A stretch of DNA of 63,897 bases, taken from Firmicutes bacterium HGW-Firmicutes-15. GTDB taxonomy: Bacteria > Bacillota > Syntrophomonadia > Syntrophomonadales > Syntrophomonadaceae. The notes under the pieces are model-generated. The model ran no database searches. It worked only from the letters and a program-made list of their open reading frames with translations, and was not told where the DNA came from. Both the position numbers and the translations under genes were made by a program. Of this stretch, positions 8,927-38,685 are shown one piece after another. How positions within the stretch are numbered: position 1 is the stretch's first letter; each line of letters starts with the position of its first letter. Location: assembly GCA_002840245.1 (NCBI GenBank), contig PHAA01000020.1:1-63897 (forward strand), given 5' to 3'.

Positions 8927-9979
8927 ATGTCACACAGTCCGAAAGAAGTAATATTGAGGATTGATAATTTAACTGAAGCGAAATTGCCTATTATCGCGGT
9001 ATACGGTATTTATAAAAACGAACAACAATTTATACAAAGATTTTTAGACTCCGTGCAAGACGCCGATGAAATCATTTTGTGCGATACCGGTTCTGAAGAT
9101 AATACCAATGAAATTATTAATCAATATAAAATGAACTATCCTCACATTAACTTGAAAGTTTACTCCATATGCGTTTCCCCCTGGCGTTTCGATGATGCCC
9201 GCAATACCTGCCTTTCTTTAGTCAATCCAAATATTGATATCTGCATTTCTCTGGATATGGATGAGTATCTGATAAAAGGATGGAAACAACATCTGATTGA
9301 CCATTGGGAACCAGAGTATACCAGGTATTACCATAAATTTAAAACCTTCTGGGCTGACGAAAGTGAATCCGAACACTGGCATGAACGAATCCATGCCCGA
9401 ACCGGATATACCTGGAAGCTCCCGGTTCATGAGATATTGGAATATAGCGGGGAAGAAAAAGTAAAATGGCTGCCCGATTTCTGGGTATACCATGAACCGG
9501 ATCAGAACAAAGTTCGCTCAACTTACCTTCCCCTATTAGAACTATCCGTACGAGAAAGGCAAGATATCTGGAAATCATGGTCTTTTCTGGCCAGTGAATA
9601 CTCGGCTATGGAAAGATTTGAAGAGGCCTTGAACGCTCTTGATAAAGCTTTAAGTCTCCATGACAGTGATAAATCCTACCTTAATAAAATGAAATACTAT
9701 GTCTACAAAGCCAGCAATCAAGTGAATTTAGCTCTGTTAAGTTTAGATAATGCGATTTTACTGATGCCGGATCGCAGGGAACCATATTTTGAAAAAGCTC
9801 GGTATTTATATGAATTGGGCAGAAATGTAGAAGCTTATTTCTATTTTAAACAAAGTGAAAAGGTTGTAGATAAAATCATCGATTACCATTATGAGCCGGC
9901 AGCCTGGAATACTGAATTTGAAGACTGGGGTTGGCAACTTTTGGAACTTGCTAAAAAAGAGGGGAGTAACGTTGAGTAA
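8927..9979 (+). CDS. Family 2 glycosyltransferase with C-terminal TPR region
   Basis: 350 residues from ATG 8927 (AAAGGGAGAGAG upstream); the open frame to 8840 has no better site. The N-terminal ~200 residues are a GT2 (GT-A) domain: VYGIYKNEQQFIQRFLDSV, ILCDTGSEDNT, and the metal-binding LDMDEYL (DxD). The C-terminal ~130 residues are alpha-helical TPR-like repeats. It overlaps the following paralogue by eight bases. Downstream of a collagen-like protein gene, it is a good candidate for adding sugars to the GPT triplets; sugar and acceptor are inferred. Confidence 0.85.
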   Translation: MSHSPKEVILRIDNLTEAKLPIIAVYGIYKNEQQFIQRFLDSVQDADEIILCDTGSEDNTNEIINQYKMNYPHINLKVYSICVSPWRFDDARNTCLSLVNPNIDICISLDMDEYLIKGWKQHLIDHWEPEYTRYYHKFKTFWADESESEHWHERIHARTGYTWKLPVHEILEYSGEEKVKWLPDFWVYHEPDQNKVRSTYLPLLELSVRERQDIWKSWSFLASEYSAMERFEEALNALDKALSLHDSDKSYLNKMKYYVYKASNQVNLALLSLDNAILLMPDRREPYFEKARYLYELGRNVEAYFYFKQSEKVVDKIIDYHYEPAAWNTEFEDWGWQLLELAKKEGSNVE

Positions 9980-11205: not shown

Positions 11206-12324
11206 CTACGCAATAGATAAGCCAGCTTGTTCATCAGTACTGGTGACGTTTGCGGCGCCAGTGGTGAAGGTGATAACCTGGTCGGTTCCCAACAGCTTTT
11301 GATTGCCGCCTTGAAGGCTTTCGGAAATGGTCAAGACATAGGCCGTATTGCTTTGTAGGGCGTGCCTGGGATGGATGATGATATCCTTTTTCTTCTCAGA
11401 ACTTTCATTCGGTTCAGCCATAATAACATCTATCTCGACGGGCTGCTTTTTACTGCTTTCCAGAGAGAAGCACTGCAGATTATGGTCCCGCACCGCGTAG
11501 GTAATGACGTTGTTGGAAAATGTCAGCTTGATATCCGTGTTAACCGGAACATTTTCTTGGCCAGAAGCAATATTGCTGTCGATTATTGTCAATGAAAGAT
11601 AAGAACTGCACAATTCCTGATCAAAGGGCGTGATGTCCATGATTTCGTGGGTTGAAAACATGATCGTGTGGTTTTCCTTCAAATACCTATAATTATTAGC
11701 CTGTAGGAATTTGGATATGAAAATCTTATAGACCCGGCCGTCAGTAAGCCGGGACATAGGTCTGACAAAAAATGTTCTTCCGGCCATTTGTCCAGACATT
11801 CTTTTATTTCCGGGTATGATCTCGATAGGTACTTCCTTCATCCTGTCGTCATACAGATGGAAGCACTCCATATTGCTCTTCATGCCATCCGGGATTTTGT
11901 GATCCATAATGGCGGAAACATTGACCGAGAAGACTAGTTCAATTTCCAAACCAACCTGTTCAGAGTGGTTCAAGTTAATAGCCTGCAAGGCTAACGAATG
12001 TTTGCCAGACGAGTGTTCGTTGACCAGCGAGGCGGTGAACAAATCAAGGGCATCCACCTGTTCGGCCGGGAGTCTTCGTATATTGCCGATGATCCTATTA
12101 ATTTGCGCCGATTGGGGTTCACTCAACAACCCTTCACCAAGTAACTCGCCTAAACTCATCCCCAGCCCCTGTGATAATTTCCTCAAGGTCCCGAGGGTCG
12201 GCTGCTTTTCTCCCGATTCAATTCGCCAGATAAACGACTGGCTAAGACCAGATTGTTTAGATAATTTGGATGTTGAAAGCTTATGGCTTTCTCGAATCTG
12301 TTTCAAGCGGTTGCTAAAGTCCAT
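11206..12324 (-). CDS. XRE-family regulator with two cytoplasmic Cys-Ig (Big_5-like) domains
   Basis: Residues 1-65 are a classical XRE helix-turn-helix (LKQIRESHKLSTSKLSKQSGLSQSFIWRIESG). After a ~50-residue linker come two Ig-like domains (about 115-226 and 255-357) of the SbsA/Big_5 type normally found outside cells. Domain 2 is close in sequence to the secreted protein at 23537: compare DIKLTFSNNV, CFSL, VEIDVIMAE and TAYVLTIS with DIKLTFNKNV, CFSL, IEVIMAD and TAYVVKVS. Both domains keep Cys-Phe-x-Leu (Cys154, Cys285). There is no signal peptide or membrane helix, so the Ig part must sit in the cytoplasm. It starts at ATG 12324 behind GGGAGGTGG and is divergent from the first Moco-riboswitch operon. 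Inferred role: a sensor of the same ligand the surface proteins handle. Confidence 0.85.
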   Translation of the reverse strand: MDFSNRLKQIRESHKLSTSKLSKQSGLSQSFIWRIESGEKQPTLGTLRKLSQGLGMSLGELLGEGLLSEPQSAQINRIIGNIRRLPAEQVDALDLFTASLVNEHSSGKHSLALQAINLNHSEQVGLEIELVFSVNVSAIMDHKIPDGMKSNMECFHLYDDRMKEVPIEIIPGNKRMSGQMAGRTFFVRPMSRLTDGRVYKIFISKFLQANNYRYLKENHTIMFSTHEIMDITPFDQELCSSYLSLTIIDSNIASGQENVPVNTDIKLTFSNNVITYAVRDHNLQCFSLESSKKQPVEIDVIMAEPNESSEKKKDIIIHPRHALQSNTAYVLTISESLQGGNQKLLGTDQVITFTTGAANVTSTDEQAGLSIA

Positions 12325-12618
12325 GGATGTAGGCCACCTCCCTAGTAAGGATTATGCCATGACTTTAGACTATATTCAATACTTTCTATCCTAGGACTAC
12401 AAATCAAACGCTTCGACCAATAAAGACAAAAAGCAACATAAAGAGACATAGAAAATAATAGATATATATATGTAACTTTTTATCAATTTATGTTATGTTA
12501 TATAAATAAATGCCTAAAGACACAGAAAAAAATACCTATAGGAATACTATTTAAGGAGAGAAGAAGAGGACATTAATGTAAAGCGGACCGTTCTCTATCA
12601 TAATAATAAATTTAATAT
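12325..12618. other. Divergent control region with no gene
   Basis: An AT-rich gap between the minus-strand XRE-Ig gene and the first riboswitch. It must hold promoters for both. AAAGACA-type words recur at about 12423, 12440 (AAAGAGACA) and 12515 and could be operator half-sites, but this is weak. No open frame of note. Confidence 0.4.
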
Positions 12619-12769
12619 ATACTCCGAGTCTGTCAACCTAAAGTAAAAACCAGGGTTCTCAGGCCTATAGGGTGAATCTGGAAACGGATGCACCTCCCAT
12701 TGTGGAAAGGAGAAGCCAAATTCGACCAAATATTGGGGTGAGTCTGCTTTTCGTGGCTCGCCTTTTTTT
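12619..12769 (+). ncRNA. Moco-type riboswitch 1 with terminator
   Basis: The aptamer spans about 12621-12717 and shares the four-member pattern of this window: CTCCGAG at the 5' end, a stem capped by CTGGAAACGG (GGTGAATC / GGATGCACC), then CCTCCCAT and GTGGAAAGGAGA closing the outer stem. This matches the molybdenum/tungsten cofactor RNA motif as I remember it. A terminator follows (GGTGAGTC / GGCTCGCC then seven T, 12736-12769). This suggests transcription attenuation of the secreted-protein gene at 13162. Confidence 0.8.
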
Positions 12770-13161
12770 ATTGGCTGAGAATTTAAGAAATCTCCTTAAT
12801 CGAATGCCTTTGGCAAACAGCAATGTAATCAGAGATCAAGGTGTTACAGCTAATGGGTGTGTATCCCAATTGGAAAGGGGGATTAGTTATATAAACGGAA
12901 TTCTGTGCTTTCTGCGTTTCCGCTTCATTTGCAAGGAACATTCATCTAAATAATCGACAAAGAGGTGATGATAAGGATCACATTAGAAAAATATTGTAAT
13001 TTTGAATAATGGCGGAAAACTCTGTGGGGTGTGAAATGAATAATCCCCTCGGTGCGGAAAGGATAGAAACTTATTTTTACCCAAGGTTATTTTTCGATCT
13101 CCAGGTGGAATAAGCGGTATTGATGAGAAGAAGAATTCTAAATTATAAGGAGGATTGAGCC
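12770..13161 (+). other. Long leader after riboswitch 1, no gene seen
   Basis: About 390 bases between the riboswitch terminator and the first gene. No convincing start with a ribosome site precedes an open frame. A stretch at 13030-13075 ends TGCGGAAAGGATAG, faintly like an aptamer 3' half, but the 5' half is missing. Confidence 0.4.
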
Positions 13162-14328
13162 ATGTTAAAAGGTAAAAAGTCAAAACTAGCCGCGTTGTTG
13201 GTGGCGCTATTCCTGATGATGGCAGTGGTTACCCCCGGGGCCTATGCCCTGAACAGTTCGACCAATAAGGCATTTAATTATTGTGGGTATAATATTAATT
13301 CGGTTAATACCATACAGATATATCTGGACAAGAAAGTCTTAACGACCGGTGAATGCCCGGTTAAAGAACAGTTCAAAATTGACCAGGTTGGAGGAGATAC
13401 GCAGGTAATCGACAGCATTAGTATTTTAACTGATGGTAACTATAGCGGGATAACGAGTGATAATGAGCTGAAAAAAGGGACGACCATAACTATACAGTTA
13501 GAAGATGATTTGGTGGAAGGGGAGCAATATGAAGTAACTGCTAACAATACGCTATATGCGAACAATGGCTCAAACATTGGGAGTTACTTTAAAAAGAAGA
13601 ATTCGGAGTTTATCTGTGAGTATGAGCCCGATAGCACAAACATTGTTGTGACCCCTCGTATCGATGCCAGTGATACCGGAATTCCTTGGGAGAGCAACAT
13701 TGGCTTTACCATCGACCGCCCAGTGAGTACTACGACTGCCAATAACATCATATCGAATATGGGTCTGCAGAAAAAGGATGGAAACAATGTATACCAGAAC
13801 GTAACCCTGGATCCAACATTAGATACAACGGCGGTCAGTGGCGCGGAGGCTTATTCCGCCCGGAAAAATGATGTATGCACCTATTTCTTCTTCCCAATGA
13901 CTGGAAACGGCCAAACGATCATCTCTTATAACCTTGGCTCAGGAGAATACAGGCTGGTGATACCGTCGTTTACGGATAATGGGGCGAGCTATGCCGGCAG
14001 CAATGTTGACTTTGTTACCACCTCTGGCGATGTGCCCGGCAAACTGGTGGACGCCCCTACTGTCGAACAGGGTACCGCCAGTGATGGCCAGTTGAACATC
14101 TCCTGGAGTACTGGTACTACCTCGCCGGTTGCGAGTGAGTACAATGTCTATGTTTCTGAAGACAGATATTGGGATTTCATAAAGAAAAACAGCACTCCAA
14201 TCAATACTACTAGTACTACTGTGACCGATCTTGATAACAACAAAACCTACTTTGTCAGAATCACGCCGGTTAATAACTACGGCGAAGGAGGATTCTCTCT
14301 GGCTAATGCTAGTGCAGTTGCTCCTTAA
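13162..14328 (+). CDS. Secreted Ig/FN3 protein behind riboswitch 1
   Basis: 388 residues. The signal peptide is LAALLVALFLMMAVVTPGAYA. Two Ig-like segments follow (to about residue 285; NNGSNIGSYF and IPWESNIGFTI are shared in spirit with the protein at 17490) and a C-terminal FN3 domain (SEYNVYVSEDRYWDF... TYFVRITPVNNYGEGGFS). It starts at ATG 13162 behind AAGGAGG. There is no SLH domain or sortase signal, so it is either released or held by partners. It is homologous over most of its length to the N-terminal half of the 17490 protein. It is followed by a strong terminator, so it is the only certain target of riboswitch 1. Ligand or partner unknown. Confidence 0.85.
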   Translation: MLKGKKSKLAALLVALFLMMAVVTPGAYALNSSTNKAFNYCGYNINSVNTIQIYLDKKVLTTGECPVKEQFKIDQVGGDTQVIDSISILTDGNYSGITSDNELKKGTTITIQLEDDLVEGEQYEVTANNTLYANNGSNIGSYFKKKNSEFICEYEPDSTNIVVTPRIDASDTGIPWESNIGFTIDRPVSTTTANNIISNMGLQKKDGNNVYQNVTLDPTLDTTAVSGAEAYSARKNDVCTYFFFPMTGNGQTIISYNLGSGEYRLVIPSFTDNGASYAGSNVDFVTTSGDVPGKLVDAPTVEQGTASDGQLNISWSTGTTSPVASEYNVYVSEDRYWDFIKKNSTPINTTSTTVTDLDNNKTYFVRITPVNNYGEGGFSLANASAVAP

Positions 14329-23042: not shown

Positions 23043-23158
23043 TAAGCAGTTAACCCATCATTTATCATTGCCTGCTTAATTGTGGGTTATATGAAAAATA
23101 TATGATTATGCAGGATTTATGGTTCTTGTGTCGAAGCATATATAAAACAATTAAATAT

Positions 23159-23308
23159 GCGCTCCGAGCCTGAAGACCTAAAGTTGTAACCAAGGTTATC
23201 AGGCCGTTAAGGTGTATCTGGAAACAGGTGCGCCTCCCATTGTGGAAAGGAGAAGCCGAATTCGACCCAATATTAGGTGAGTCTGCTTTTCGTGACTCGC
23301 CTTTTTTA
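23159..23308 (+). ncRNA. Moco-type riboswitch 2 with terminator
   Basis: Same pattern as the first: GCTCCGAGCC at 23160, GGTGTATCTGGAAACAGGTG stem, CGCCTCCCATTGTGGAAAGG, AGAAGCC, then a terminator GGTGAGTC / GACTCGCC with T run ending ~23308. Base changes in the GGAAAC-capped stem relative to copies 1 and 4 keep pairing. It lies upstream of the Cys-Ig membrane protein and the first FecBCD-type importer. Confidence 0.8.
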
Positions 23309-23338: not shown

Positions 23339-23536
23339 TAGTTGCGTATGTTCGGCGTCACTTTTTAGCAGTGGGTTTGTATTTTTTGAGATGATGAACG
23401 GAAAAAAGAGGGGAGAGTAGCTTCCCATGCATAATGCCTGCAATAAAGTAAGTATTATGCATTGAACTTATATGTAGCCAAGGTATTATAGAAATTGGGA
23501 ACAAAAAACGGAATAAACTCTGAGGAGGCAGTGATT

Positions 23537-24337
23537 GTGAACCATAAGATCATTAAAAAGTCGAGGCTATTATCAATTGTAGTTCTGGCTGTGCTTGGAT
23601 GCCTATTAATGGCTTTACCAGTATTGGCGGCAGGTGATGGAAGCGGCGGGGGTCAGGGTGTACCTCTAGGTCTGGATTCATCCATTCCATCTGACGGCCA
23701 GAAGGACGTCCCTCTGACGGGAGATATTAAGCTTACGTTCAACAAGAATGTAATTTTCCTGGGAATAAGGGATGCTAATAAAACCTGCTTTTCACTTATA
23801 GCATCAGATGGCAGCAAGGTACCTATTGAAGTTATTATGGCTGATGACCAGACTACTGAAGGATTTGAAAAAAGAAGAGATATTTCTATTAGGCCGGTGC
23901 AGAAACTACAACCGGGAACTGCTTACGTTGTGAAAGTATCACCTCAGTTGCAGGCGAAAAACGGTATGAGTTTGGGCCACGAGGTAACGGTTAACTTTAT
24001 CACTGCAGGTGTTGCTCCCAAACCAGTGGAACCTGCGCCTGCGCCTGTACCTGTCGCTGATCCCGGAAAGACCCAGGTCGATGATAAGCAGCCGACTCCA
24101 ATAACTACTGATACCACCCCTAATATAACCAGTGAGTCCAGTCATCCCGTAGTGGAAAAAGCGCCAACGCCAACGCCAACGGTAGAAGAAAAGAAAACCG
24201 AGGTCGACGACAAATTACTTGCGACTGAACCAGTAAAAACCACTCAGAGTGCTAACCGAACTTATGCACTGGTTGCTGGGTTAGTATTGATAGCAGGTAT
24301 GGGGTATATTTATTCTAGAAAGAGAACTGGAAAATAG
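23537..24337 (+). CDS. Membrane-anchored Cys-Ig surface protein of the importer operon
   Basis: 266 residues from GTG 23537, nine bases after GAGGAGG; the open frame begins at 23495 without a site. Signal peptide (LLSIVVLAVLGCLLMALPVLAAG), one Big_5 Ig-like domain (about 48-158) with KTCFSL (Cys84), a Pro/Thr-rich stalk (160-240) that contains VDDK twice, and a C-terminal membrane helix with basic tail (ALVAGLVLIAGMGYIYSRKR). No LPXTG. Its Ig domain is the closest relative in this window of domain 2 of the XRE regulator. It sits 30 bases before the permease gene, which argues for a role in presenting ligand to the importer. Confidence 0.83.
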   Translation: MNHKIIKKSRLLSIVVLAVLGCLLMALPVLAAGDGSGGGQGVPLGLDSSIPSDGQKDVPLTGDIKLTFNKNVIFLGIRDANKTCFSLIASDGSKVPIEVIMADDQTTEGFEKRRDISIRPVQKLQPGTAYVVKVSPQLQAKNGMSLGHEVTVNFITAGVAPKPVEPAPAPVPVADPGKTQVDDKQPTPITTDTTPNITSESSHPVVEKAPTPTPTVEEKKTEVDDKLLATEPVKTTQSANRTYALVAGLVLIAGMGYIYSRKRTGK

Positions 24338-24367: not shown

Positions 24368-25384
24368 GTGAACGAAACGAAGAAAAAATTGTTATATGCC
24401 TCGTTGGTCATTGGGCCACTGGCATTTATATTTATAACCCTTTTCATAGGGAGGTATCCGGTATCAATACCGGTGGTAGCCCAAATATTATGGTGTAAGT
24501 TCACCTTCAGTACTTGTAATCTACCTGATATTTACCAGACGCTCGTGTGGGATATTCGTATGCCCAGAGCTATTTTGGGCGCACTGGTAGGAGGCTCTCT
24601 GGCGGTCAGCGGGGCAGCCTTTCAGGGATTGTTTCGGAATCCTTTGGTAAGTTCTGGTATTCTGGGTGTTACTTCAGGAGCAGGTTTTGGAGCTGCTTTA
24701 GCTATCATACTTTTTCATGCCGCCACAGTTCCCATATACATTTCTGCCTTCCTTTTTGGAGGACTAGCGGTACTGCTCAGTTTCTTAATTGGGAGGGTAT
24801 ATAACACCACTCCGGTCATCATGCTGGTACTAGGCGGAACCATTGTTTCATCAGTGTTTTCAGCCTTAATATCCTTTACCAAATATGTGGCTGACCCTAC
24901 CAATGAACTGCCAAGTATAGTTTTTTGGTTGATGGGCAGTCTGGCCTCGGCCCGTTACCAGGATATTGTAATCGCTGGCCTTCCCATGGTGGTGGGAATT
25001 GTTGGTCTGGTAGCCGTTAGATGGCGGATAAATGTTCTATCAATGGGAGATAAAGAAGCCCATACGCTTGGCATTAATACTAAAATGAACAAGGGTATCG
25101 TAATCGTATGTGCCACCCTGGCTACAGCAGGGGCGGTATGTGTAAGCGGTATTATTGGCTGGGTGGGTCTGGTAATACCCCATATAGGCCGAATGCTGGT
25201 AGGCAACGATAACCGGGTATTGATTCCGACCAGCCTTTCTTTGGGAGCCTGTTTTCTCATCCTGGTTGATAACTTAGGCAGAATTATAACTGGTTCTGAA
25301 ATACCGCTGGGCATTTTAACCGCTCTGGTAGGTGGACCCTTCTTTGTTTATCTATTAAAGAGTACGAAGGGGGGCGGGTGGTAA
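24368..25384 (+). CDS. FecCD-family ABC importer permease (MolB/BtuC-like), system 1
   Basis: 338 residues, about ten membrane helices, FecCD family: LVWDIRMPRAILGALVGGSLAVSGAAFQGLFRNPL, the SGAGFGAALAI block, and GWVGLVIPHIGRMLVGNDNR, the segment that contacts the ATPase. The family carries siderophores, cobalamin, haem, and in Haemophilus influenzae MolBCA molybdate and tungstate. The Moco-type riboswitch upstream makes Mo/W or a chelate the best guess. GTG 24368 overlaps its own AGGAG-like site, so the start is slightly uncertain. It is followed three bases later by the ATPase gene. Confidence 0.88.
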   Translation: MNETKKKLLYASLVIGPLAFIFITLFIGRYPVSIPVVAQILWCKFTFSTCNLPDIYQTLVWDIRMPRAILGALVGGSLAVSGAAFQGLFRNPLVSSGILGVTSGAGFGAALAIILFHAATVPIYISAFLFGGLAVLLSFLIGRVYNTTPVIMLVLGGTIVSSVFSALISFTKYVADPTNELPSIVFWLMGSLASARYQDIVIAGLPMVVGIVGLVAVRWRINVLSMGDKEAHTLGINTKMNKGIVIVCATLATAGAVCVSGIIGWVGLVIPHIGRMLVGNDNRVLIPTSLSLGACFLILVDNLGRIITGSEIPLGILTALVGGPFFVYLLKSTKGGGW

Positions 25385-25387
25385 GCT

Positions 25388-26197
25388 ATGCCTTTACTTG
25401 AAGTACAGAATATCAATTTCGGCTATGACCAGCGGGATGTATTAAAGGATATATCTTTTCAGGTTAATAAAGGGGAAATATTTTTCCTTTTGGGTCCTAA
25501 CGGCTGTGGCAAAACCACTCTGCTGGACTGCGTCCTGGGGCTGTTAAGGCCTCGGAACGGTAATATACACCTTAATGGGACTAATATCAACGGGATTAAA
25601 CCCGAAAGCATTGCCCGGCAGGTAGCGTATGTACCTCAGAGCCATGAAAAGACGTTTCCCTATACCGTAAGGGATATTGTACTGATGGGACGGGCTTCTT
25701 ATATAGGATTATTTGCCTCTCCTTCCGAAGAGGATATGGCTATTGTCGAGGAGGCCTTAGCCTTGGTAGGCATTCTCCATCTTCGCGATCGTCGCTATAC
25801 TCAGCTAAGCGGAGGGGAAGGGCAACTGGTTATGATAGCCAGAGCACTGGCCCAGAAGACTCCACTGATTGTAATGGATGAACCAACTGCCCATTTGGAT
25901 TTCAAGCATGAACTGGTGATTATGGAAACCATTGTAGATCTGGTCAGAGAAACAGGTCTGTCCATTTTAATGGCTACCCATTTCCCTAATCATGCTTTTT
26001 ATTTTGAAAACAATGATATTGCCACCCGAGTAACGTTAATGAATGATAATAGATTCCTGAGAGCAGGGAGTCCGACTGAGGTTCTGTCGGAAGATAACCT
26101 GAAATTAATATATAATATCAATGCCCGGGTGGTATCATACCCTATCGATCTTGACCATGAACTAAGACAGGTTATACCTATTAGTACTAATAACTAG
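25388..26197 (+). CDS. ABC importer ATPase (FecE/MolC-like), system 1
   Basis: 269 residues with all motifs of an importer ATPase: Walker A GPNGCGKTT, Q-loop VPQS, signature LSGGEGQ (the usual LSGGQ with E), Walker B LIVMDEPTAHLD, and switch His in MATHFPNH. It powers the permease encoded immediately upstream. Cytoplasmic. Confidence 0.9.
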   Translation: MPLLEVQNINFGYDQRDVLKDISFQVNKGEIFFLLGPNGCGKTTLLDCVLGLLRPRNGNIHLNGTNINGIKPESIARQVAYVPQSHEKTFPYTVRDIVLMGRASYIGLFASPSEEDMAIVEEALALVGILHLRDRRYTQLSGGEGQLVMIARALAQKTPLIVMDEPTAHLDFKHELVIMETIVDLVRETGLSILMATHFPNHAFYFENNDIATRVTLMNDNRFLRAGSPTEVLSEDNLKLIYNINARVVSYPIDLDHELRQVIPISTNN

Positions 26198-26217
26198 GGG
26201 AGAAGGGAAGATACATA

Positions 26218-27315
26218 ATGAAATTACAGCGGAATGCAATAGTGCGCAGCTTTATTATCATAAGCCTTATACTTAGCCTCTTATTATCGGGAGGCTGCAA
26301 CAAGCAGCAAGCCAATGAGCCCCAGGCCGGTGCTGATACCATAACAATTACCGATTGCATAGGACGGCAGGTAAACATTCCCTCCCAAATAAACCGGATC
26401 GCTTGTCTATGCCCGGAATCGGGTTATGCACTAGCGATGTTTGGTAAAGGTGATAAAATCGTGGCCGTGGTGGGTGGATTACAAAGAGACCTTATTCTTA
26501 CCGACATGTATCCCGCGATAAAAGGACTCCCAGTGCCTAAGGGAAGCGCGGTAATTAATATTGAGGAATTAGTTAAAACCAAGCCGGATGTAGTTTTTGT
26601 TAAGAGCGATACCTCCAGCAGTGAAGCGGAAACAGAAAAACTGAACAAGAGCAAGATACCCTTTCTGGTAGTAGAGTTTAATAACATGAAGGGGCAGCAG
26701 GATGCTATTGAGATGATTGGCAAAGTAGTAGGAGCGACTGATAAAGCTGGTAAATATAATGCTTATTATCAAAAATGCATAGACCGCGTTCAGGAGCGGG
26801 TAGCGGGTATTCCTCAAGAGAAAAGGGTAAAGGTATATCATTCACTTAATGAAGCTATTCGGACTGATATCAAAGGCAGTCTTTCAGGCGATTGGATGCA
26901 GGCTGCTGGGGCTTTCAATGTTTCGGCCAATGAAAACTTGAGGGCATTGGAAGGCAAGTACTTTGCAAGTCTGGAGCAGATACTATTATGGAATCCGGAT
27001 GTGATCCTGGTTAATGAAGGAGCAGTAGTGAATTATATCTATACCAATAAACAATGGTCACCCCTGAAAGCGGTCAAAAATAAACAGGTCTTACAATTGC
27101 CCAATGGTATATCCAGGTGGGGTCACCCCTCGTCACCTGAGACCCCGCTAGCTGTTTTGTGGACCGCTAAGACTATATATCCGGATAAGTTTGCTGACCT
27201 GGATATGGTGGCAGAAACCAAATATTTCTATAAGGAATTTTTCAGCCTAGAATTATCAGATGAGGTAGTTAATAAAATTATATTTGGTGAAGGTATGCGA
27301 ATAGCCAGACAATAA
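26218..27315 (+). CDS. ABC importer substrate-binding lipoprotein (FecB/MolA-like), system 1
   Basis: 365 residues. Signal with lipobox LLLSGGC (Cys near residue 25), so a lipid-anchored binding protein. The two-lobed FecB/BtuF fold is indicated by TITDCIGRQVNIPSQINRIACL and by LLWNPDVILVNEGAVVNY near residue 260. It is 20 bases after the ATPase gene. Substrate not readable from sequence; molybdate, tungstate or a metal chelate is inferred from the riboswitch and operon. Confidence 0.87.
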   Translation: MKLQRNAIVRSFIIISLILSLLLSGGCNKQQANEPQAGADTITITDCIGRQVNIPSQINRIACLCPESGYALAMFGKGDKIVAVVGGLQRDLILTDMYPAIKGLPVPKGSAVINIEELVKTKPDVVFVKSDTSSSEAETEKLNKSKIPFLVVEFNNMKGQQDAIEMIGKVVGATDKAGKYNAYYQKCIDRVQERVAGIPQEKRVKVYHSLNEAIRTDIKGSLSGDWMQAAGAFNVSANENLRALEGKYFASLEQILLWNPDVILVNEGAVVNYIYTNKQWSPLKAVKNKQVLQLPNGISRWGHPSSPETPLAVLWTAKTIYPDKFADLDMVAETKYFYKEFFSLELSDEVVNKIIFGEGMRIARQ

Positions 27316-27357
27316 TATGATAAGACAGATTCTATTATTAATTTAGGAGGGTGTTTG

Positions 27358-28086
27358 GTGAAAATATATGTCGCTATAGATGACACTGACAGCCTGGAGG
27401 TTGGTGCAACTGGTCAATCGGCTAATGAGCTGCGACGAATTATAAAAGAAATGGGTTGGGGGGAACCCGAACCTGTAACCCGGCACCAGTTATTGTTGCA
27501 TCCGGATATACCGTATACTTCTCATAACAGTTCTATGTGTTTTATTGTAGAAATGAAGGAAGATAAGCTTAATGAATTCATTGATTGCGCTGCTGAGTTT
27601 TTAAAAGAAACCAGTGCTCCAGGTTCAGACCCCGGATTATGTGTTGCAGTAAATGACCGGATAAAGGATATGAACAATTTAATGAGCTTTGGATTCAAGG
27701 CCAAAGTGGAGATACTGAATAAGGAAGAAGCATATAAGATAGCCGAAGATTGTGGCATTCATCTTTCTGAACACGGCGGTACCGGACAAGGAATTATAGG
27801 AGCGCTGGCCGGGATTGCACTCCGGATGACCGGTAATGATGGGAGATTTCAGGGAAGAACCAAGCTGAAAGATGCCGGAGAAACAATGGGGATAGGTGAA
27901 ATTATTGCGAACACTGAAATAGAAGAAGTACAATCGATTGATGGGCATGTACTTACTGACGATGAAATACTTATAATAGGTGATAAAATAAAAACAGTCC
28001 TGCTGGATGGTAAAAGGAAGCTTCTGGTTTACCGCGAAAACGACGGGTGGCATACCTGTAATAATCAACACCTTAAAAATTATTGA
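27358..28086 (+). CDS. TiaS-like (DDTDS) domain protein, copy 1
   Basis: 242 residues. GTG 27358, seven bases after AGGAGG, or the adjacent TTG 27355. AIDDTDSLEVG at the N-terminus, PYTSHNSSMCF, and HLSEHGGTGQGIIGALAGIALRMTGNDGRF are reminiscent of the catalytic part of TiaS, the archaeal agmatidine-tRNA synthetase, but the protein is much shorter than TiaS (~420) and lacks its RNA-binding C-terminus. It belongs to a stand-alone COG1571-like group of unknown function. First of three tandem copies following the importer genes, 40 bases after the binding protein. Possibly an ATP-using step on the imported ligand or on a cofactor; inferred. Confidence 0.75.
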   Translation: MKIYVAIDDTDSLEVGATGQSANELRRIIKEMGWGEPEPVTRHQLLLHPDIPYTSHNSSMCFIVEMKEDKLNEFIDCAAEFLKETSAPGSDPGLCVAVNDRIKDMNNLMSFGFKAKVEILNKEEAYKIAEDCGIHLSEHGGTGQGIIGALAGIALRMTGNDGRFQGRTKLKDAGETMGIGEIIANTEIEEVQSIDGHVLTDDEILIIGDKIKTVLLDGKRKLLVYRENDGWHTCNNQHLKNY

Positions 28087-28107
28087 GTACATTGGAGGTT
28101 TCGAAAA

Positions 28108-28848
28108 ATGAAAATATTTGTTGCTATTGATGACTCCCTCCAGCTAGACGGTGGTAAAGCAGGTGTAACCGCATCATTAATGACCCAAGCCATAGAAGAT
28201 AACCGCTGGGGTAAATGTACAATTCCCAGCCGTCATAGGTTATATCCCCATCCTGATACCGGATGCAAAAAACACAATACTGCCCGCAGTTTTTCGGCAG
28301 ACATTGAGGAACAATACCTGCAAGTATTTATTGACTATGCCTGTAACCTGATAAAATCCAGTGGGACTCCTGAATCCAATGCTGGACTGGCTATTGCAAT
28401 CCCGGAACTAATGGGAAATACCGATGAGCTGCTGGACTATGCGTATCGCGCTAAAGAGGGTATGGTGAGCAAGAATGAAGCTCTTGCATTTTCTGAAAAA
28501 ACGGGCATTTATTTATTTGAATTGAGCGGCAGCGGACGAGGCATAATCGGCGCACTTGCAGCAGCCGGGCTCCGCATCACTGGAAATGATGGACAGTTTA
28601 GAGGAAAACTGCAGCTTAGCAAAGTCGAAAATTATGTAGCAACGGTAAGCGAAATAATATATAACACATATGTTGAACAGGTAAAGAATATGGATATGGA
28701 GCTTATTGGACTTGATGAATATGTACGCATGGGTGAAAAAGTAAAGGTTGTACTGCTTGATAATAAATACACTTTGATGGTTTTTCCCACCGATATTCAA
28801 CACCCGAAATGGCAGACCAGCACCACCCATATGCTGCGAGTATTCTAA
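28108..28848 (+). CDS. TiaS-like domain protein, copy 2 (diverged Asp motif)
   Basis: 246 residues. Same architecture as its neighbours, but the N-terminal DDTD motif is DDSL, the HNSSM motif is HNTAR, and SEHGGTGQG has become FELSGSGRG. GRGIIGALAAAGLRITGNDGQFRG is kept. The pattern suggests a partner subunit that lost catalysis or changed substrate while keeping the fold. ATG 28108 behind GGAGG. 21 bases after copy 1. Confidence 0.75.
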   Translation: MKIFVAIDDSLQLDGGKAGVTASLMTQAIEDNRWGKCTIPSRHRLYPHPDTGCKKHNTARSFSADIEEQYLQVFIDYACNLIKSSGTPESNAGLAIAIPELMGNTDELLDYAYRAKEGMVSKNEALAFSEKTGIYLFELSGSGRGIIGALAAAGLRITGNDGQFRGKLQLSKVENYVATVSEIIYNTYVEQVKNMDMELIGLDEYVRMGEKVKVVLLDNKYTLMVFPTDIQHPKWQTSTTHMLRVF

Positions 28849-28905
28849 TCGGAAAGCGTTACCAAAGAACCATCAGCTTGTCACAAAATTACGGGAGGCT
28901 TATTG

Positions 28906-29670
28906 ATGAAAATTCTTGTTTCAATAGATGATACGGATACTATGAAAATGGATGGTATTGAGGTCAGGGGAACCGGGGAACTAGCTGGTCTGATTAAGCA
29001 GGCTATTGAGGAATATGGCTGGGGCAGCTGTGAACCGATTACTCGTCACCAACTACTCATACATCCAGGCATACCATATACCTCCCATAACAGTTCGATG
29101 TGTTTCGAAGCTGAGATTGAACAAGCTTTTTTAGAACCTCTGATTGACTTTGCATCCGATTTTTTAGCTAACGAAAGCACACCCGACTCAGATCCGGGAT
29201 TGTGTGTCGCAGTTACCGATCGTATAAGCCGACCGGGGTGGCTTATAGCTTTTGGTTATATGGCCAAGAATTATGTGTTAAACAAGCAGGAGGCCTATGA
29301 TCTAGCTGAAAAGTTGGGCATTCATCTTTCCGAACATGGAGGAACCGGCCAGGGAGTGATTGGTGCGTTGGCCGGAGCCGGATTACGCCTCAGCGGGAAT
29401 GACGGTCGGTTCAAAGGGAAATTGAAGATCAAAGCGGAAAATAGCATTATTAAGGCAGGAGATATTTGTTCCCAGGTAAAGGTTGATATGGTTAAGTGTC
29501 TGGAGGAAGGCATTGTGCTGCAGTACGATGATATGGTTGTCCTGGGAGATCATATTAAGCCAGTATGGTTATATGGAAAATCGGTCTTGCTTGTGCACGC
29601 AATTAATGAAGATACTGTAACCCAGGCACACTGGCAAACCTATTCCAAAAGGCAACTAAAAGATTTCTAG
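28906..29670 (+). CDS. TiaS-like (DDTDT) domain protein, copy 3
   Basis: 254 residues from ATG 28906 (GGGAGG seven bases upstream; a TTG at 28903 is less likely). Closer to copy 1: SIDDTDTMKMDG, TRHQLLIHPGIPYTSHNSSMCF, GLCVAVTDRI, HLSEHGGTGQGVIGALAGAGLRLSGNDGRF. The retained acidic motif implies it is active. 57 bases after copy 2. Confidence 0.77.
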   Translation: MKILVSIDDTDTMKMDGIEVRGTGELAGLIKQAIEEYGWGSCEPITRHQLLIHPGIPYTSHNSSMCFEAEIEQAFLEPLIDFASDFLANESTPDSDPGLCVAVTDRISRPGWLIAFGYMAKNYVLNKQEAYDLAEKLGIHLSEHGGTGQGVIGALAGAGLRLSGNDGRFKGKLKIKAENSIIKAGDICSQVKVDMVKCLEEGIVLQYDDMVVLGDHIKPVWLYGKSVLLVHAINEDTVTQAHWQTYSKRQLKDF

Positions 29671-37515: not shown

Positions 37516-37533
37516 ATGAGTGGAGAGAAATTG

Positions 37534-38685
37534 ATGGCAAATATAATGCTGGATGTTAATGGATGGCAGACCGTTCTTAATTTTGAAACAGGAGAGCCTG
37601 TTGAGGATCTAAATGATCTGATAATGGAAGATATGATGAAAATTACCCCCGCACTGCCCTATCCAGGCGATACGAATCCCGAATCGGTGGATTGGACGGT
37701 GGACGTTGCTCTTGCTGTTTCAGATTATTATAACCCGGATTTCATTATGCTGGCGTTTTCTACGCAGCAGATCATTAAGATAAACGAACAACTGACACCC
37801 GAGGAGAGTGTGGCAATTAACGAACGGATTTTTAAACAAGTAACACGCTTCCTTGAAAAAACTGATTACGAGGCCATGGTAATTGGCATGGGAGGCATGC
37901 AGGATATAAAAGGCGTTATTGACCAGTCAAAACTTTCTACAGGGTTGACCTCAACCATGTGCGCATATCATTATGCGGGACTGTTCATGAGCCGCGAGAA
38001 CGATGCTGACGTAATAAAGAATATGGAGCATATTAAATACGCCATCACAAAAGATGATTTTAAGGCAGCTCACCCCGAGATGAAAGACGCATACTATGGC
38101 ATGTTGCCCGACTATCTGCTGATGAGTAGTGATGGGTATGTTTTTAACGAGATGGGTAAACGTGGCATAGTCCATAAAAAAACGCCGCGGATGATGCATG
38201 AACTGCCTGTCTATACCACTCTTGAAAGGCCAAATCATATACTGGAGGTGCGCGGGATTCTCGAACGCGCTATGGATGAGGGGAAGAAGGTTGCTCTGAT
38301 AATGCTCGAGGGAACTGGAACCGAAGATTTTAAATTCCCTTATAACATGATGGGCAACCAAACCGAGTGGTTTGTACATGACCAGGGTTTGAGCCAATAT
38401 CTGGCGGTGGCAACGGGTAAACCGTTTTATAATTATGATTATCCACCCATTGTCAATTCGGTAAACTACCTTAATACATCTGAGAAATATCCTTATTCGC
38501 AGCATTTCTCGGTTTTACCTGAGGATACCATAGGGCGCAGGCCAGACAAACGCACTGCGGCTGTGGGAACGCGCAGCGGGTTCATACACGAAACAACCAT
38601 GGCGGATATATGTGTCGAATGTCATTCAAGGCAGCTTTCCATGTCGGGAGTGTTTGTTCTGGTAAACGACCCGAAAGATGTGTAG
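37534..38685 (+). CDS. Unknown 383-residue protein of the second importer operon
   Basis: I do not recognise this family. ATG 37534 with GGAG eight bases upstream is preferred over ATG 37516. No signal peptide or membrane helix. Visible features: YYNPDFIMLAFS and YEAMVIGMGGM near residues 75 and 120, a His-rich middle, GTGTEDFKFPYNMMGNQTEW, and a C-terminal TMADICVECHSRQLSMSGVFVLV with CVECH as a possible metal site. The alternating beta/alpha pattern is faintly like alkaline-phosphatase-superfamily enzymes but no catalytic motif is certain. It is 18 bases after the radical SAM gene and three bases before the permease gene, so it works with them. Confidence 0.75.
   Translation: MANIMLDVNGWQTVLNFETGEPVEDLNDLIMEDMMKITPALPYPGDTNPESVDWTVDVALAVSDYYNPDFIMLAFSTQQIIKINEQLTPEESVAINERIFKQVTRFLEKTDYEAMVIGMGGMQDIKGVIDQSKLSTGLTSTMCAYHYAGLFMSRENDADVIKNMEHIKYAITKDDFKAAHPEMKDAYYGMLPDYLLMSSDGYVFNEMGKRGIVHKKTPRMMHELPVYTTLERPNHILEVRGILERAMDEGKKVALIMLEGTGTEDFKFPYNMMGNQTEWFVHDQGLSQYLAVATGKPFYNYDYPPIVNSVNYLNTSEKYPYSQHFSVLPEDTIGRRPDKRTAAVGTRSGFIHETTMADICVECHSRQLSMSGVFVLVNDPKDV

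Follow-up and report, generated by a model that had tools for sequence, protein, structure and literature searches.

An XRE-type regulator with two Ig domains next to a Moco/Tuco riboswitch-led surface-protein gene in Syntrophomonadaceae

Introduction

The window, a 63,897-nucleotide stretch of contig PHAA01000020.1 from Firmicutes bacterium HGW-Firmicutes-15, contains a gene on the minus strand (11206–12324) that joins a DNA-binding domain with two Ig domains of a type found in surface proteins. This raises the question of what such domains do in a regulator, and of what the regulator controls. The earlier note, made from the sequence alone, proposed that one ligand is recognised outside the cell by surface proteins and inside by the regulator. 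Here, we describe the architecture of the regulator, its relationship to the surface proteins and the elements that separate it from the divergently transcribed gene.

The regulator and its N-terminal XRE unit

The gene is one uninterrupted frame of 372 codons encoding a 372-residue protein. Full-length orthologues are present in about ten genomes of Syntrophomonadaceae and Desulfotomaculia; eight of them share 71–77% identity, and one more is found in L118. The loci of Syntrophomonadaceae comprise the window, L037 (genome G040), L008 (G031) and L043 (G042, with assembly gaps), and those of Desulfotomaculia comprise L038, L039, L040, L042 and the additional L118 (G546). A further orthologue, L041, lies on a 4-kb contig binned as Paceibacterota, which is probably mis-binned. 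The dN/dS ratio of 0.12–0.19 indicates purifying selection on all domains and, together with the orthologues, rules out a misread frame or a chance ORF.

The N-terminal part (residues 1–64, 12133–12324, minus strand) is a Cro/C1-type HTH domain, which matches Pfam HTH_3 at residues 7–61 (5.6e-11, 42.7 bits against a cut-off of 23) and has SinR, DdrO, C.AhdI and ComR as relatives in the PDB. AlphaFold2 (AF2) places the five helices of this domain within residues 3–68. Two additional predicted helices, residues 73–83 and 87–103 (12010–12132, minus strand), complete an RstR-like stand-alone repressor unit and probably serve for dimerisation. Residues 1–105 align with positions 1–104 of the 108-position NCBIfam model phage_RstR (8.7e-14); the score of 51.7 bits is below the curated cut-off of 80, so that the regulator is similar to this family and is not classed as a member. 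Moreover, stand-alone XRE frames of about 110–120 residues in related genomes align exclusively with residues 1–105. The regulator therefore looks like a complete small XRE repressor to which about 265 C-terminal residues were added. The protein has neither a signal peptide nor a transmembrane segment, and its highest 19-residue hydropathy mean is 1.09. Since it lacks a hydrophobic segment, it should be cytoplasmic, in agreement with the earlier view of an XRE regulator carrying extracellular-type Ig domains in the cytoplasm.

The two Ig domains and their relatives

Domain 2 (residues 245–356, 11257–11592, minus strand) is recognised by Pfam Big_5 at residues 245–355 (5.6e-15, 56.4 bits against a gathering cut-off of 23.6), whereas domain 1 (residues 110–235, 11620–11997, minus strand) has no match in Pfam. 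A profile of domain 2 matches domain 1 in all full-length orthologues (domain E-values 2e-6 to 8e-11), and the domain-1 region used alone as query finds other Big_5 domains, including domain 2 of the same protein. With an alignment of eight sequences the AF2 model is weak (pLDDT 65.6); with rows of the surface family added to the orthologues the overall pLDDT rises to 79, with about 70–93 for domain 1, modelled as a beta sandwich, and mostly 84–96 for domain 2. In a Foldseek search, the tandem Ig domains of LdtMt2 (PDB 4hu2, E 2.7e-10) rank first among the matches that span both domains, followed by the S-layer Ig proteins SbsC and Sap. Judged by profile and predicted fold, domain 1 is a diverged copy of Big_5. 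The fusion of an HTH to two Ig domains, claimed by the earlier note, thus holds for the intact frame, and an Ig fold is predicted for both domains.

The closest relative of domain 2 in the genome is the anchored protein encoded at 23495–24337 (plus strand; the start may be a GTG at 23537), which is 47% identical over regulator residues 248–357. This agrees with the assignment of the closest relative in the window to a secreted protein encoded beside an importer. In a tree of 66 Ig domains, built from few columns and uncertain in its inner order, both regulator domains group with the importer-linked surface Ig family (98/91), and the long SLH/Fn3 Ig proteins stand apart from this clade. The suspected kinship is thereby borne out for both domains.

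Members of the surface family are composed of a signal peptide, the GDGSGGG motif, an Ig domain, a proline-rich linker and a membrane anchor. The GDGSGGG motif, located just after the predicted signal peptide, is invariant in the family alignment, as is an Asp-Asp-Gln motif within the Ig domain. In the window, the surface Ig gene is preceded by a Moco/Tuco riboswitch (23150–23268, plus strand; RF01055, 70.3 bits) and followed by genes for a FecCD permease, an ATPase, a binding protein and three proteins resembling TiaS and methanogenesis marker 11 (24368–29670, plus strand). All 12 loci sampled have this context largely in common; individual genes are absent or diverged in some of them. A Moco RNA is located directly upstream of the surface Ig gene in 16 of the 25 loci scanned. 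The permease most closely resembles BtuC and permeases of the F420-0 type.

Several features of these neighbourhoods are recorded on their own account. The three tandem paralogues at 27355–29670 are related to methanogenesis marker protein 11 and to the N-terminal region of TiaS, and stand behind a FecCD importer in a bacterium; with few exceptions, relatives of these genes adjoin the surface Ig gene in the 12 loci sampled. In the Desulfotomaculia locus L038 (2640–9511), the place of FecCD next to the genes for the surface Ig protein and a TiaS-like protein is taken by an ECF transporter of the CbiQ type. The window also encodes a 389-residue protein with no match in Pfam or NCBIfam (37516–38685), whose gene is flanked by a radical SAM gene and a second FecCD importer and lies downstream of another Moco RNA.

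Signature residues of the Ig domains

The regulator lacks the signal peptide, the GDGSGGG motif and the C-terminal anchor that define the surface family, having no hydrophobic segment. It retains three residues of that family, N272, N282 and C285. The invariant K71, D104, D105 and Q106 of the surface proteins are replaced in all regulators, in which K71 corresponds to Asn and Asp-Asp-Gln mostly to Glu-Pro-Asn/Asp.

The earlier note held that all Ig domains of the group share a Cys-Phe-x-Leu/Met motif. The motif is found in both regulator domains, in the proteins encoded at 23495 and 5732 and in one domain of 19875, but it is missing from 13162, 17448 and the first domain of 19875, so this generalisation fails. 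In addition, the motif occurs in generic SLH/S-layer Ig domains. The domain-2 cysteine is invariant among the orthologues, with the adjacent Phe changed to Ile in L042, whereas the domain-1 cysteine is Ala, Thr or Gly in all Desulfotomaculia orthologues. A conserved cysteine pair as metal site was considered and ruled out, as Cys154 is not conserved.

A tandem palindromic pair upstream of a riboswitch

The region between the regulator and the divergent gene (12325–12609) carries two 14-bp sites with starts 22 bp apart. Site A, the palindromic ATTCCTATAGGTAT on the minus strand, occupies 12532–12545, and site B, GTGTCTTTAGGCAT on the minus strand, occupies 12510–12523. L037, L043 and L038 carry equivalent pairs, spaced by 22–23 bp, ahead of the regulator gene, and in the four loci the pair lies 197–221 bp from the regulator start codon. 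None of 300 dinucleotide shuffles reaches the pair score in any of these four loci, from which the motif itself was derived. In the held-out locus L118, found afterwards, the pair is recovered at a spacing of 23 bp (0 of 500 shuffles). The best pair in L041 is marginal (18 of 500 shuffles), and the pair was not found in the intergenic regions of L040 and L042; the recognition helix of L040 is identical. The strict tandem pattern has a single occurrence in each of G000, G040, G042 and G101, and the reversed control pattern has no match. A regulon beyond the locus was rejected, as the strict pattern appears in four of ten genomes, once in each and nowhere else.

The tandem pair at 12510–12545 is, on these comparisons, a new candidate operator, and the region put forward earlier for footprinting (12325–12620) contains a conserved operator-like element. 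The sites could also belong to another protein. The regulator promoter, detected by promoter scan at 12351–12379 (minus strand), consists of TTGAAT, a 17-nt spacer and the extended −10 element TGgCATAAT, and is conserved in nearly all orthologues.

On the plus strand, the pair is followed by a Moco/Tuco riboswitch aptamer (12610–12726; RF01055, 70.1 bits) in which the P3 positions are deleted. The P3-less class of Moco RNA is associated with the tungsten cofactor (Regulski et al. 2008, PMC2408646). The aptamer is succeeded by an intrinsic terminator, the probable expression platform (12735–12769), with a hairpin of −14.6 kcal/mol (12727–12775, z −3.1) and a U tract, which suggests control by termination. 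The site pair is located about 65–100 bp upstream of the aptamer start. This position suggests activation rather than promoter occlusion, although an upstream position is no proof of activation.

The two sites are about two helical turns apart and the regulator has two Ig domains, an arrangement that would suit a structural role in which these domains merely dimerise or multimerise the protein on the tandem sites and bind no effector; the loss of the surface-family signature residues would likewise fit a loss of binding. We consider such a role unlikely, because the conservation of domain 1 (LQANNYxYLKExHTIxF) is stronger than the fold requires and the unit of residues 1–105 already has helices that could dimerise.

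The divergent surface-protein gene

The riboswitch precedes the presumed main target, a gene at 13162–14328 (plus strand) whose product has a signal peptide, Big_5-like repeats recognised by inspection, and an Fn3 domain (Pfam fn3, 2.6e-7). In six loci (the window, L037, L043, L038, L040 and L118), the gene transcribed divergently from the regulator encodes a surface protein, and these Ig/Fn3/SLH proteins vary in size and domain make-up between loci. In L038, from Desulfotruncus, genes for an SLH-Big_5 protein, two ECF ATPases, CbiQ, a surface Ig protein, two small proteins and a TiaS-like protein appear to form one divergent unit. As a separate observation, L037 contains three tandem Moco RNAs (8974–9710) ahead of a 2863-residue Fn3/RCC1 surface protein whose gene is divergent from that of the regulator.

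Surface proteins are both the nearest relatives of the regulator Ig domains and the products of the divergent gene, so the regulator might pair through its Ig domains with those of surface proteins not yet exported, so that a secretion back-up would feed back on the neighbouring gene. The divergent proteins take very different forms across the loci, which argues against one conserved contact and makes this kind of protein sensing quite improbable.

Association with Moco RNAs and the shared-ligand question

This genome contains 13 Moco RNAs, and at least one such RNA is found in 60 of 63 genomes of the class and in all six extra genomes checked. Genome-wide co-occurrence was therefore dropped as evidence, being uninformative for an element that is nearly universal in the class. 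Locally, each of the three Syntrophomonadaceae loci that could be assessed (the window, L037 with its three copies, and L043) has a Moco RNA divergent from the regulator and placed between it and the surface-protein gene, but none is present in the three Desulfotomaculia loci whose flanks exceed 5 kb (L038, L040 and L042) or in the additional locus L118/L119. The expected link between regulator homologues and Moco-riboswitch loci thus stands at the local level for Syntrophomonadaceae and does not extend to Desulfotomaculia. A surface Ig gene is no more than 12 kb away from the regulator in the window, L038, L040 and L042; the distance is about 19 kb in L118/L119, and no such gene was found within 10 kb in L037 or L043.

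These data bear on the proposal that the Ig domains in the cytoplasm share one small ligand with the importer-linked surface Ig proteins, namely molybdate, tungstate, a cofactor or its chelate, and act as a ModE-like sensor. The placement of both domains in the surface-family clade, the common N272, N282 and C285, the frequent position of the surface family under Moco RNAs and its proximity to the regulator in four loci are all consistent with such a sensor. The same holds for ModE, for which no match exceeds the cut-off in 11 genomes and G000 lacks even a weaker one; partial ModE-like matches in two regulator genomes weigh in the other direction. Further evidence against the proposal comes from the domain-1 cysteine, which is not conserved, and from the Desulfotomaculia loci without a Moco RNA. 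As D104, D105, Q106 and K71 are lost in the regulator and the Cys-Phe-x-Leu/Met motif is common to generic SLH Ig domains, the claim that one ligand is read inside and outside finds little backing, and we regard a common ligand as improbable. There is a similarly low chance that the Big_5-type pair is a cytoplasmic effector-binding domain that reads the W/Mo-related ligand of the surface paralogue and works in series with the Tuco riboswitch on one transcript.

Spread and loss of the regulator

The regulator is present in 4 of 63 genomes of the class, in 5 of 113 genomes of Desulfotomaculia and in 2 of 398 genomes sampled across the phylum. The dS of 0.69 between the window and the Desulfotruncus orthologue does not exceed the 0.81 found for the window and L037, which belong to one family. 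A value across classes that is not above the value within a family is too low for vertical descent and points to spread by horizontal transfer. Carriage by phages or plasmids was rejected, as neither collection contains a match to the regulator, and so was a mobile element with inverted termini, since the intact loci show no consistent inverted repeat; the deletion remnant in L044 is alone in having a 12-bp inverted repeat near the gene.

In the Syntrophomonas wolfei group, two genomes retain only a remnant of the regulator (L044, 10001–10187; L045, 10001–10223), with a common internal deletion joining codons ~37 and ~287, and a third retains only a 43-bp upstream match. These genomes keep 10–15 Moco RNAs, and the regulator is therefore dispensable for the Moco network.

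A working model and comparison with known systems

We give about an even chance to a model in which the protein acts locally, as a one-component regulator of the divergent surface-protein unit. In this model, a complete XRE unit of the RstR type (residues 1–105) would carry two C-terminal Ig domains derived from the importer-linked surface family of the lineage, and the regulator, cytoplasmic, horizontally spread and strictly local in action, would bind the tandem palindromes at 12510–12545. The bound regulator would set transcription of the divergent gene, and the transcript would next be gated by the P3-less riboswitch and its terminator. The Ig pair may serve as the input or the assembly module. 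If it is the input, a fold of adhesion and S-layer proteins would join the sensor domains of bacterial one-component regulators. Moreover, the single-copy operator-like site makes the regulator easy to test, and the locus opens a way into the Moco/Tuco-riboswitch network of syntrophic bacteria, which has received little study and includes the conserved unit of surface Ig protein, FecCD importer and methanogenesis-marker-11-like proteins.

XRE regulators are known to carry a variety of sensor domains at the C-terminus. The literature, covered in part and not exhaustively searchable for fusions, yielded nothing relevant on HTH fusions with Big_5 or SbsA, and an Ig (Big_5) pair as the C-terminal part of an XRE regulator is, as far as we searched, undescribed. 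The regulator resembles the RstR phage repressors (NF041951) through the end-to-end alignment of its first 105 residues, and differs from them by its sub-threshold score and its two Ig domains. With the Big_5 (PF13205)/SbsA-like Ig domains it shares the predicted fold of both domains and the Pfam match of domain 2; in contrast to them, it is predicted to be cytoplasmic and fused to a DNA-binding domain, with domain 1 too diverged for Pfam. The resemblance to the tandem Ig domains of LdtMt2, a cell-wall transpeptidase, is one of fold only. The Moco-RNA-linked anchored Ig protein and its relatives, nearest to domain 2, share with the regulator an IMA stretch besides N272, N282 and C285, whereas their signal peptide, GDGSGGG motif, proline-rich linker, membrane anchor and Asp-Asp-Gln are absent from it. 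ModE has different HTH and molybdate-binding domains. Only HTH and Big_5 domains are found in the regulator, which thus differs from ModE in both functional parts. The layout of the two systems may nevertheless be alike, with a transcription factor acting upstream of a gene led by a Moco RNA, as for ModE and the Moco riboswitch of Escherichia coli moa (Regulski et al. 2008, PMC2408646).
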